Positions 15,446 through 19,319 of a DNA stretch of 64,000 nucleotides are shown piece after piece. The DNA is taken from contig NC_051450.1 in assembly GCF_001649575.2 (NCBI RefSeq), forward strand, positions 17,140,881 to 17,204,880, read 5' to 3'. The notes beneath the pieces were generated by a model that was not told the DNA's origin, searched no databases, and saw only the letters and a program-made list of their open reading frames with translations. Position 1 is the stretch's first letter, and each line of letters starts with the position of its first letter. The position numbers and the translations under genes are program-made. The DNA is from Kryptolebias marmoratus. Taxonomy: Eukaryota > Chordata > Actinopteri > Cyprinodontiformes > Rivulidae.

Positions 15446-15451
15446 AAAAAC
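15446..15451. repeat. Target-site duplication, left copy
   Basis: AAAAAC directly outside the left inverted repeat; identical to the six bases outside the right one. The A-rich context means one or two bases of the boundary could shift. Confidence 0.65.
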
Positions 15452-15508
15452 TACGGTGGCTCTGAGGTGCAAAGCACTACAACATTAACAAAAACACTAC
15501 AACATTAA
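15452..15508 (+). repeat. Left terminal inverted repeat of the transposon
   Basis: Starts TACGGTGGCTCTGAGGTGCA and continues into the first 20-bp subterminal units. It pairs with 19257-19313 with only two differences visible. Confidence 0.85.
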
Positions 15509-15580
15509 CAAAAACACTACAACATTAACAAAAACACTACAACATTACCAAAAACACTACAACATTAACAAAAACACGTT
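15476..15580 (+). repeat. Subterminal tandem array of a 20-bp unit
   Basis: Five consecutive units of AACATTAACAAAAACACTAC (15481, 15501, 15521, 15541, 15561). The fourth has one substitution (ACC for AAC) and the last diverges at its end. The right end carries at least two matching units before the gap. Subterminal repeats of this kind usually bind the transposase (inference). Confidence 0.9.
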
Positions 15581-16078
15581 TCTCTGCCAAGGCCCTAACT
15601 GCTTCAGACTTGGAGACCATGTTCAAACCGGATCTCAGCCCAGTAGGAAGCAATAGGCGGCAAAAGGAGGGCAAAACAATGGTCTTCTGGGCAATTATTT
15701 GCTTGATTGCGAAGGTTAGTAAGGGCACATTGTGTTTTATTCTAAAATTGTTCATTTTGTTGATTATTGGGAGGAAAGCAGAACTAAAAATATCATTTGT
15801 GCAATGCATTATCTATTAACTAAATTGTTTATCATCTTTCAGAGAAAACAACTGCAGTGTCTGTAGAGGAAGTGCTGATGTTTGCCACAGGTCTAACAGC
15901 AATTCCACCTGCAGGCATGACGCCATCTCCACATTTGGAGTTCTTGAGTGATTCACCATTTCCAGTGGCAAACACTTGTGCTAACATACTTAAGCTGCCA
16001 CTTTTGGAAAGTTATGCCACTTTTAGGGACAACATGGACTTTGGGATACAGAATGCTCCAGGATTTGGATGCTACTAA
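15579..16078 (+). pseudogene. HECT-type E3 ubiquitin ligase, C-terminal lobe fragment inside the transposon
   Basis: Two exons can be joined: about 15579-15718 (FSAKALTASDLETMFKPDLS, then SPVGSNRRQKEGKTMVFW) with donor GTAAGG, and 15843-16078 ([20 protein letters not shown], then [20 protein letters not shown] and [14 protein letters not shown], stop TAA). The pattern follows the HECT C-lobe: GSNRR-KE, a VLMFATG strand, the ANTC motif carrying the ubiquitin-accepting cysteine, and the final FGI-N-PGFG tail, as in G2E3-like fish proteins. The N-lobe is absent: homology starts where the subterminal repeat array ends, so this is a truncated captured or resident gene. It runs convergently to the transposase. 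With no upstream exon or promoter, it is unlikely to give a working ligase. Confidence 0.75.
15598..15681 (+). repeat. 84-bp direct duplication, copy 1
   Basis: Begins ACTGCTTCAGACTTGGAGAC, within the first HECT-fragment exon. It recurs at 16080-16163 (offset 482) with three mismatches. Confidence 0.9.
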
Positions 16079-16079
16079 G

Positions 16080-16163
16080 ACTGCTTCAGACTTGGAGACC
16101 ATGTTCAAACCAGATCTCAGCCCAGTAGGAAGCAATAGGCAGCAAAAGGAGGGCAAAAAAATG
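16080..16163 (+). repeat. 84-bp direct duplication, copy 2
   Basis: Starts two bases after the HECT fragment stop codon. It repeats the GSNRR-region coding sequence (here GSNRQQKEGKKM, then stop) with three substitutions relative to 15598-15681. Confidence 0.9.
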
Positions 16164-16366
16164 TAAATGTTAAAAAAAAAACTTGTTTGTTTTGCTAAAC
16201 CGTTTTCCTGTTCTTTTGTTTCTTACAAGTAAAGCAATTTAACACAAATACTCAAAACTTTGTTATAATGTTTAATCCACTTGTTGCTGTTCACAATAAC
16301 AATGATGATTCATTTGAGCAGGACAGGAGACAAACTATTAAGAGATTTGATTCTGGTTGTTTGTGT

Positions 16367-16574
16367 CTACAGCCTTGCTATGTGATTGAGCAAGAAATAC
16401 AGTTCCATAGCTGACTCCCAGTTTTGTGGCTGCTGTTGTCCATGTTGTTGCATGGCTTGCAGTAGGTATTCCTCAATGTCTTTATCGCCACACAACTCTG
16501 TCACCTGACTTGCTTCTGGGAAAACATCCAGATCACTGTCCTCAACAGGAAATCCACAATCTCTTGAACCGTAT
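16367..16574 (-). CDS. Transposase exon 3 (stop codon)
   Basis: 208 nt beginning RYGSRDCGFPVEDSDLD, with an acidic segment and a glutamine-rich stretch (MQQHGQQQPQNW), ending with TAG at 16367-16369. Acceptor TTTTTCAG. Confidence 0.8.
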
Positions 16575-18852
16575 CTGAAAAAGTCAGAATATAATTTATA
16601 ATAGAATTGTGATGGATATTTTCTATACTTAGTACAAGTACTTGGAATTGTCAGATTTTTCTTTGCTGGTTACATGACCCAGTATAAGTGAGCACTATCA
16701 GTGATGCCTTATGCAGTGTATCACAAAAGTGAGTACACCCCTCACATTTCTGAAGATATTTCATTATATCTTTTCAAAATGACACGTTAACACAATGAAA
16801 AGTAGTATGCGTACAGCTTATATAACAGTGTAAATTTATTTTTCCTGCAAACTAACTCTACATACAGCCATTAATGTCTAAACTAAAGTGAATAAGTCCT
16901 TTGTGAAAATGTCTATATTGTCAATATTTTGTGTGGACACCATTATTTACCCAAACTGTCTTAACTCTCCTGGGCTTGGAGGATGTCCCAAAGATGTTCT
17001 ATTGGGTTTAGGTCTGGAGACATGCTTGGTTCGTCCTTCACCTTTAACTGCATCTTCTTCAATAAGGCAGTGGTCATCAAATGTAAGTGCATAGAGGTGC
17101 TCTTACATTTGTGATACAAAGCTATAGGTTTTTTGTACATATATAATAGATATCCTAACTTGTGCTAACAGCACTTATGCATTATTATGTAATGTCAAGC
17201 ATTATTTTTATTTGTGAAAATGTCAATTACCTGTGAGGCAAGAGATAGAGTTCGTTTGGAATCCCCCCAGGACATGATGCAAGTCTGCTTGGTCGGATCC
17301 TGTGGTTATTCCAGAGATCTTTGCATTCATCCAGGTCTTTCTGCAGAACTTCGGTGAAGCAGAATCTGAGCAAGCACTGGTGCTCATGGCTTCCGTTGAA
17401 GTTTCCAGAGTCTCTTAAATCTCCAAACAAGTCCATCCAAAACTGAGACCTGAGGATACATTGAATTAGAAACGGTTCTGTTCTTTTTCATATGAAAATG
17501 ATTAAACGATTGTCTGTCCTCCATGTCCATAACATTGAATATTAATGTATTTGAAACTGAATATCATGTTTCAAATACATGAAATATTAGTTTGTATTGT
17601 TCCCACATACAAACTAAAACTTTGTATAGCATCTGAAATATTCTAATTTGGAAACAAAATATTTGCTAAAGCATTATGAAAATATATGTTTGAAACAAAT
17701 TCAATATGGCATGTTAACTGGCAACCGACAGCCATGTGACTGCCAAATTCTTAGGCACTTTATATGGAGTTGCCATGACAAAAATAAACAAACCACTAGC
17801 TTAGAACTTGCTTTCACCTCATCACAAATTTATAAACAGTAAATAGTACGTTGCTCCATTACGATTTTTGAGTACCCACCTCTGTGTAATACTAAAATTA
17901 ATATCACTGAAATGTATTGTAGTAATTACTGCCGAACTAGCAAAATTTGCTTAATAGCTTACATGTATGTTACTAAAGCTACCAGAACCTTGTTTTTTTA
18001 AACGAATGCTTTACAAATCCGTTTTATCTCAGACTGTATGCTTCTATGGATTTCAGACCATGATCAGCTTTAGCTGTACTTCACATTTAAAAAACACAAA
18101 TGTACCCACCTTCCTCTTCTGAAAAAAGACCACCATGACTCGATGCGTTGATTCCCTGTGGATGATCCGTAACTGTGGCTTAATGATCCAGCATAATAAT
18201 CCGTATGCGCATGGCGAAGGGCACACTGTATTGCTGCCAGAGTCCCGTTCTCTGTGCCGAGGTCTGTTCGTAGTCTCATTGGTATCACTCCAAGACTCTT
18301 GACACAGTTTATATAATGCTGGGCAATGACAGAAGGATTGTTGTTTGTTGACCCGCAAACAAGCCACATCATTCTTCTCGAAAAACCATCAATGCATCCT
18401 GAGATGGCCAAGCCAAATGGCTTCAGTTTATCGTAGCCATCTACATGCCATATGTAATTGGGCCCCATAGAATGATACGTGCGTCTTGTAAACCTCCTGC
18501 GAGTCCTCAGAGCGATGCCTTGAGGATTCAGCTGCCTCAGCAGTCTCATTACAACATCACGTTTGACACGCAGGTTGTGTTTTTGTTTGAGAATTTGCCA
18601 CATGGTCCGATAGCCAAATAATTGCCCTGGTCCTCTCAGCTCGGTCATAATGGCACGCCTCACTTCAGGGAGTGGAGAGTAGTTACCTCTTCTATGCAGT
18701 CCTGCTTCTTTCAAATGATTTTTTAGTGAACGCATACTAACTGACACTTCGTGGTTGGTCCGAAGCATGTCCAGTATTATCTCATACGTATGCCCTGCCT
18801 CAAAATACTGTTGAATAGCAGAAGCAAGGTTTGGATCACCTAGAACGTTCAT
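16367..18852 (-). CDS. Integrase-core (DDE) transposase, three exons, apparently intact
   Basis: Predicted to cut and paste the surrounding element. Joining 18110-18852, 17231-17449 and 16367-16574 gives 1170 nt, or 389 residues, with GT-AG junctions in phase and no internal stop. Order: helix-turn-helix-like N-terminal part (residues about 20-57), a second helical domain with GYRTMWQILKQK-H at 80-92 like the HTH of bacterial IS3 transposases, then the integrase core with WHVDGYDKLKPFG (D138), RTDLGTENG (D197) and QRIESWWSFFRRG (E238), then WNNHRIRPSR and a C-terminal tail ending near MELYFLLNHIARL. This matches a protein family abundant in teleost genomes and usually annotated only as integrase-core domain protein. 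The start at 18852 was chosen because homology begins there; an in-frame ATG at 18936 would read through the palindromic promoter region. A Tc1-like fragment lies in the second intron. Confidence 0.85.
16714..17079 (-). mobile_element. Tc1-like transposon fragment nested in the transposase intron
   Basis: Starts with the Tc1-type end CAGTGTATCACAAAAGTGAG followed by TACACCCCTCAC. Further in, the minus strand encodes SPDLNPIEHLWDI, the transposase motif around the second and third catalytic positions. The element is internally deleted and lacks its other end. It lies between exons 2 and 3 of the integrase-core transposase. Confidence 0.75.
17231..17449 (-). CDS. Transposase exon 2
   Basis: 219 nt joining in phase after exon 1: RSQFWMDLFGDLRDSG, then LWNNHRIRPSR and LYLLPH. 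Acceptor ATCCTCAG, donor GTAATT. Confidence 0.85.
18110..18852 (-). CDS. Transposase exon 1
   Basis: 743 nt coding residues 1-247 plus two bases, including both helical DNA-binding regions and all three catalytic residues D138, D197 and E238. The donor is GTGGGT after AGAAGAGGAAG. Confidence 0.85.
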
Positions 18853-18902
18853 GTTTCTAAAAAACACGTGAAAGAGTAACTTCCGGTTAAAAAGTAAAAC
18901 GA

Positions 18903-18933
18903 GCTGTCGTCCAATCAGCGATTGGACGACAGC
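18903..18933. promoter_or_regulatory. Perfect palindrome with inverted CCAAT boxes upstream of the transposase
   Basis: Arms of 14 bp (18903-18916 and 18920-18933) are perfectly complementary around a 3-base loop. Each arm contains a CCAAT box, giving CCAATCAGCGATTGG at the centre, and a third CCAATCAG follows at about 18934-18941. The centre is about 65 bp upstream of the transposase ATG, so this may be the core promoter, with CCAAT boxes of the type bound by NF-Y (inference). Confidence 0.6.
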
Positions 18934-18968
18934 CAATCAGAGGTCTCCCACTGGGACCTACCTTTTCC

Positions 18969-19256
18969 NNNNNNNNNNNNNNNNNNNNNNNNNNNNNNNN
19001 NNNNNNNNNNNNNNNNNNNNNNNNNNNNNNNNNNNNNNNNNNNNNNNNNNNNNNNNNNNNNNNNNNNNNNNNNNNNNNNNNNNNNNNNNNNNNNNNNNNN
19101 NNNNNNNNNNNNNNNNNNNNNNNNNNNNNNNNNNNNNNNNNNNNNNNNNNNNNNNNNNNNNNNNNNNNNNNNNNNNNNNNNNNNNNNNNNNNNNNNNNNN
19201 NNNNNNNNNNNNNNNNNNNNNNNNNNNNNNNNNNNNNNNNNNNNNNNNNNNNNNNN
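18969..19256. other. Assembly gap (288 N)
   Basis: Unresolved bases inside the right end of the transposon. The gap sits where the right subterminal tandem repeats are expected, which probably caused it. Confidence 0.99.
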
Positions 19257-19313
19257 TTAATGTTGTTGTGTTTTTGTTAATGTTGTAGTGCTTTGCACCT
19301 CAGGGCCACCGTA
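19257..19313 (-). repeat. Right terminal inverted repeat of the transposon
   Basis: Read on the minus strand it starts TACGGTGGCCCTGAGGTGCA. The inner end runs straight into the N gap, so the true length is unknown. Confidence 0.85.
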
Positions 19314-19319
19314 AAAAAC
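19314..19319. repeat. Target-site duplication, right copy
   Basis: AAAAAC directly outside the right inverted repeat, matching 15446-15451. Confidence 0.65.

Follow-up and report, generated by a model that had tools for sequence, protein, structure and literature searches.

We analysed a 64,000-nucleotide stretch of the Kryptolebias marmoratus genome (NC_051450.1, positions 17,140,881 to 17,204,880; hereafter the window), in which a DNA transposon at 15452-19313 holds the remains of a HECT ubiquitin ligase gene and a gene for a DDE transposase. The element is bounded by inverted repeats of 57 nt, with ends of the form TACGG..CCGTA, and flanked by a perfect target site duplication of 6 bp, AAAAAC. 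The HECT fragment lies inside this one pair of terminal inverted repeats with its one duplication and is fused to the subterminal repeat array; it and the transposase gene are on opposite strands and converge inward. The parts of the locus are as follows.

15446..15451, no strand: left target site duplication AAAAAC, the same 6 bp as at 19314-19319
15452..15508, no strand: left terminal inverted repeat, 57 nt, starting TACGGTGGC, 96% complementary to 19257-19313
15471..15577, no strand: subterminal tandem array, 5.3 copies of a 20-bp unit (Tandem Repeats Finder)
15578..15714, plus strand: HECT C-lobe exon 1 piece (tblastn, P0066 residues 550-591 to 15580-15705; exon end placed from relatives and sequence)
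15598..15681, plus strand: 84-bp direct repeat, copy 1, 96% identical to 16080-16163
15715..15842, plus strand: putative intron, GTTAGT...TTTCAG, predicted from sequence and phase agreement with relatives rather than from RNA
15843..16078, plus strand: final exon of the HECT C-lobe, which contains the catalytic Cys codon (15977-15979) and the PGFG tail and closes with the stop codon (PF00632, tblastn, codons)
16080..16163, plus strand: 84-bp repeat, copy 2, downstream of the HECT stop codon (tblastn to the same HECT residues as copy 1)
16367..16574, minus strand: transposase exon 3 with stop codon (joined reading frame; tblastn P0067)
17231..17449, minus strand: transposase exon 2 (joined frame; PF24764, E 1.3e-5, marginally under the cut-off)
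18110..18852, minus strand: transposase exon 1 with ATG and catalytic D138, D197 and E238 (PF24764, E 2.9e-20)
18969..19256, no strand: assembly gap (N) in the right subterminal region
19257..19313, no strand: right terminal inverted repeat, terminating GCCACCGTA, which pairs with the left repeat
19314..19319, no strand: right target site duplication AAAAAC, equal to the left copy

In the sections used here, PMC10045372 gives TA..TA termini and, in most cases, duplications of 6 bp as marks of IS3EU families, and PMC12730594 gives TAYGG..CCRTA as the ends of fungal members. The window element runs from TA to TA (TACGGTGGC...GCCACCGTA), has AAAAAC on either flank and encodes an integrase-like DDE transposase with the profile match and catalytic residues listed for exon 1. 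By its termini, duplication and transposase features, it is most probably an IS3EU/GingerRoot DNA transposon.

The earlier note on this DNA had placed a HECT C-lobe in two exons on the plus strand at 15579-16163. The place, the strand and the two pieces were borne out by PF00632 and tblastn. As the note had observed, the HECT homology follows immediately on the 20-bp array, whose last position is 15577. A search against HECT profiles, which it had proposed, matched the exon 2 open reading frame to PF00632 (E 3.9e-11, profile positions 231-304 of 306), and fish HECT proteins aligned by tblastn to exon 1 at 15580-15705 (E 7e-19, P0066) and to exon 2 at 15842-16075 (E 3e-36, P0003). The fragment thus contains a C-lobe with the catalytic cysteine, and the NTC motif and PGFG tail named in the note are both present. 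In the model of one full-length relative, residues ~552-671 form the C-lobe and the window match begins at residue 550, so the note's label of catalytic lobe was accurate. Its end point needs correction: the last HECT exon stops at 16078, and the stretch beyond it, 16080-16163, is the second copy of the 84-bp repeat and not a continuation of the HECT sequence.

The N-lobe is absent, and the window has FWAIICLIAKV where relatives have FWADYLLDCEE, which indicates a one-base frameshift near 15700; the window copy therefore encodes no working lobe. In the frame of the relatives, exon 1 closes with GAAG, GTTAGT follows at 15715, and the phase agrees with that of exon 2. Relatives most likely use this GTTAGT as splice donor and not the GTAAGG at 15719 that the note had favored, which is probably not the real donor and fits in phase only through the frameshift. 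BLAST aligned 31% of the fragment, at 100% identity, to a K. marmoratus database protein, P0066 (LOC108243755), and this protein ends in LLDCEG, the expected product of read-through at the GTTAGT donor. Judged by its codons and its junction with the subterminal array, at which the exon 1 piece begins, the HECT fragment is a relic with its 5' part deleted and its first exon frameshifted. Among the repeats listed inside the transposon (the 20-bp array, the terminal inverted repeats, the 84-bp repeat, and short inverted pairs without the fragment between them), we found no ends of a second element around it.

The transposase gene has three exons that join into an intact-looking frame of 389 amino acids with an rva_4 domain (Pfam). 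Its product aligns along the whole of its length with a Xiphophorus protein at 93% identity, and D138, D197 and E238 are invariant across 28 aligned relatives. Intron 2 holds a nested Tc1-like deletion element (16717-17118) with 26-nt inverted arms (81%) and a minus-strand DDE_3 transposase fragment (PF13358, E 2.1e-5, marginally under the cut-off). Upstream of the ATG, at 18903-18933, lies a self-complementary stretch with CCAAT-type boxes, a putative promoter.

Full-length relatives of the ligase occur in other fish, where databases mostly name them "G2/M phase-specific E3 ubiquitin-protein ligase-like." They contain a zinc ribbon, a ubiquitin-like domain and a complete HECT domain. P0003, for example, matches PF00632 at 13-304 of 306 (E 4.1e-22), and residues 302-670 of the model of a full-length relative aligned to HECT structures. 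By domain content, these proteins are complete HECT E3 ligases with predicted ligase activity. All counts given here for relatives cover the HECT and transposase matches listed, and totals may be higher.

Several database models show further arrangements of these exons. P0046 (Melanotaenia) joins family HECT exons to a VAPB-like protein and P0210 (Gymnothorax) joins them to a GIY-YIG domain; both fusions could be transposon exonization or model errors. Medaka LOC101163634 (P0205, P0206 and P0229-P0233) has isoforms numbered to X41, of about 850-1040 amino acids, that match the ligase over approximately one-third of the query and have the zinc ribbon start, with no HECT domain in precomputed annotation.

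We determined whether the ligase and transposase genes are neighbors in other fish by using NCBI LOC numbers and contigs. Eight species had LOC numbers for both proteins among the matches listed. In three of these (Notolabrus, Archocentrus and Gymnodraco), the two LOC numbers were consecutive, which we take to mean neighboring genes, and in Poeciliopsis they were 14 apart. Approximately 0.001 adjacent pairs would be expected by chance if each genome has an assumed 25,000 genes. Matching of contigs by species and equal size, from which we infer that they are the same contig, gave 11 in common between 114 contigs with HECT genes and 81 with transposase genes, counting NCBI rows only. Of the 11, seven exceed 19 Mb and are little informative alone. 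The other four are smaller than 10 Mb (out of 38 HECT and 26 transposase contigs that small) and include a 31,142-bp contig of Takifugu flavidus and a 463,084-bp contig of Brachyhypopomus.

The two proteins also co-vary. For seven HECT/transposase pairs, the Pearson coefficient was 0.82, a value reached in 10 of 5,040 permutations; without the window pair, the observed value was reached in 23 of 720, and with Gymnodraco also dropped, in 8 of 120. Brachyhypopomus clusters with Archocentrus and Takifugu for both proteins, a grouping that runs counter to host relationships.

Additionally, in several genera the HECT protein and the transposase start with nearly the same zinc ribbon. Of 120 transposases, 38 have it within residues 1-70, as do 48 of 140 HECT proteins; in one protein of each kind it lies beyond residue 70. 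The products of the consecutive Archocentrus genes, P0203 and P0083, have 25 identical zinc-ribbon residues in common, and the first 40 residues of P0203 are identical to those of another Archocentrus transposase, P0084. When six same-genus or same-family ribbon pairs were reassigned, 1 of 720 assignments (the true one) reached the observed sum, a figure that overstates the case because the pairs were picked after the ribbons had been seen. Immediately past the common part, the Archocentrus proteins diverge to GPE versus RPD. Together with the opposite strands of the two genes in the window, this leans toward two near-identical ribbon copies over one alternatively spliced exon. The common ribbon suggests a partner shared by ligase and transposase.

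Taken together, these results make it probable that, in ray-finned fish, complete members of this IS3EU lineage hold two genes, one for a DDE transposase and one for a HECT ligase of ~590-700 amino acids, and that the window copy is internally rearranged, with its ligase truncated. The ligase is probably a standing accessory gene of the lineage and not a stray host fragment. The earlier note had left open whether the family normally carries an E3 ligase or had captured a piece of a host gene; the full-length relatives, linkage, co-variation and ribbon support the former better, and capture fits less well. In a complete copy, the ligase would consist of an N-terminal zinc ribbon, a ubiquitin-like domain, a disordered linker and a full HECT domain. 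In the window copy, a deletion has removed its 5' part as far as the C-lobe, an exon piece is duplicated past the stop codon and the remainder is frameshifted, with the transposase left intact-reading. Interrupted gap repair with template switching following excision probably produced this state. The likely role of an intact ligase is that of an accessory regulator: it would ubiquitinate host proteins at the element or the transposase itself, and the zinc ribbon, present also on the transposases of some lineages, could plausibly recruit it.

Several observations weigh against a two-gene lineage. HECT and transposase sequences between one pair of terminal inverted repeats were seen only in the broken window copy. 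Four of the eight species with LOC numbers for both proteins have no close pair, and most of the small contigs among the matches listed are not common to both. The Spearman coefficient for the seven pairs was only 0.49 (84 of 5,040 permutations), and one of those pairs joins P0066 to the window transposase, between which linkage is not established. Identities do not always run in parallel, with 78% for the Metynnis HECT protein and 67% for its transposase P0086, and with 70% and 83%, respectively, in Oreochromis aureus; ligase swapping between element lineages or missing gene models would account for this. Finally, neither the window transposase nor the linked models from Notolabrus, Poeciliopsis and Gymnodraco (P0080, P0095 and P0170) have a zinc ribbon.

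We also weighed other explanations. The ligase might have no effect on transposition and be retained by hitch-hiking alone. The window copy would fit this, with its broken ligase and intact-reading transposase, as would the absence of the NTCxN motif from 56 of the 140 HECT proteins, often because the region itself is missing. We consider this unlikely, since 27 of the 140 are at least 590 amino acids long with NTCxN near the C terminus and 40 aligned relatives have many invariant columns across the ubiquitin-like and HECT regions. Quite doubtful is a one-off capture, in which aberrant repair gave the window copy a 3'-terminal piece of a host HECT gene, in a family normally without a ligase. 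That only the last 124 HECT residues remain, with an abrupt junction and one duplicated exon piece, does look like repair patchwork. However, a deletion within a resident gene explains the same junction, the source would have to be a fish-wide gene set that adjoins the same transposase family in several species, and the HECT protein co-varies with the transposase and has the zinc ribbon in common with it in some lineages. It is very unlikely that the ligases are a multicopy host family in transposon-rich regions from which a fragment entered by nested insertion, because, although the chromosome-sized contigs make up most of the common ones, the consecutive gene numbers in three fish, the common 31-kb T. 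flavidus contig, the zinc ribbon on both proteins and the lack of second-element ends around the fragment all speak against chance neighborhood.

Within the two-gene interpretation, we offer tentatively the further possibility that fish IS3EU elements are a two-protein system, with the same N-terminal ribbon on the transposase and on a dedicated HECT ligase, kept alike in each lineage by a shared exon or by paired copies near the ends. The ribbon might then recruit the ligase to the transposase, to the subterminal repeats or to a common host partner, and ubiquitination might control transposition or remove silencing factors.

Some DNA transposons are known to carry accessory enzymes directed at host regulation, as fungal IS3EU elements do with TET and alpha-kinase. 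If the two-gene interpretation is true, a vertebrate transposon family with its own ubiquitin ligase would extend the processes that such elements may manipulate to protein turnover. Such a ligase would also account for the many "G2E3-like" genes in fish genomes, and annotation and gene-family studies should then handle these as transposon genes. Whether a transposon controls its own transposase, or its own silencing, via ubiquitin becomes a testable question.

We compared the fish proteins and the element with known systems. Searches of IMG/VR (HECT fragment, transposase and both alignments), GTDB (transposase alignment) and plasmids (P0067), none of which is fish DNA, returned no relatives. 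In the literature searched, mostly by title and abstract, we met no description of a DNA transposon with a HECT gene, though a Repbase entry with a HECT open reading frame may exist; the main text of PMC4255032 contains no HECT, and in two further papers that matched, the word proved to be the name Hector. Among unclassified repeat candidates from Cottus, the portion of PMC5638112 used here gives one blastx match to G2E3, which fits a transposon-borne ligase.

The fish family has the HECT fold, C-lobe and catalytic cysteine position of cellular HECT ligases (AREL1, the NEDD4 family, UBR5 and HUWE1), with 12-22% identity in the structural alignments listed; what sets it apart is an N-terminal zinc ribbon and ubiquitin-like domain of its own. 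G2E3, the source of the database name, likewise has a C-terminal HECT domain. G2E3 also carries PHD fingers. For P0003, P0066, P0060 and P0013, four members that are full-length or nearly so, Pfam matches up to E 10 included no PHD model, which speaks against G2E3 orthology.

The element resembles IS3EU/GingerRoot in its ends and duplication; that superfamily has a DDE transposase without an HHCC motif, and the element has an rva_4-type core. Unlike the fish element, the superfamily is described with no mention of HECT or ubiquitin in the sections of PMC10045372 used here. Another parallel is the fungal TET+ IS3EU. Its accessories are a TET/JBP dioxygenase and an alpha-kinase, and the sections of PMC12730594 used here mention neither HECT nor ubiquitin. 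Like the fish element, it combines TAYGG..CCRTA ends and 6-bp duplications with an accessory enzyme gene opposite to the transposase, in this case the alpha-kinase gene, with TET between (PMC12730594). Accessory enzymes are therefore a known habit of this superfamily.
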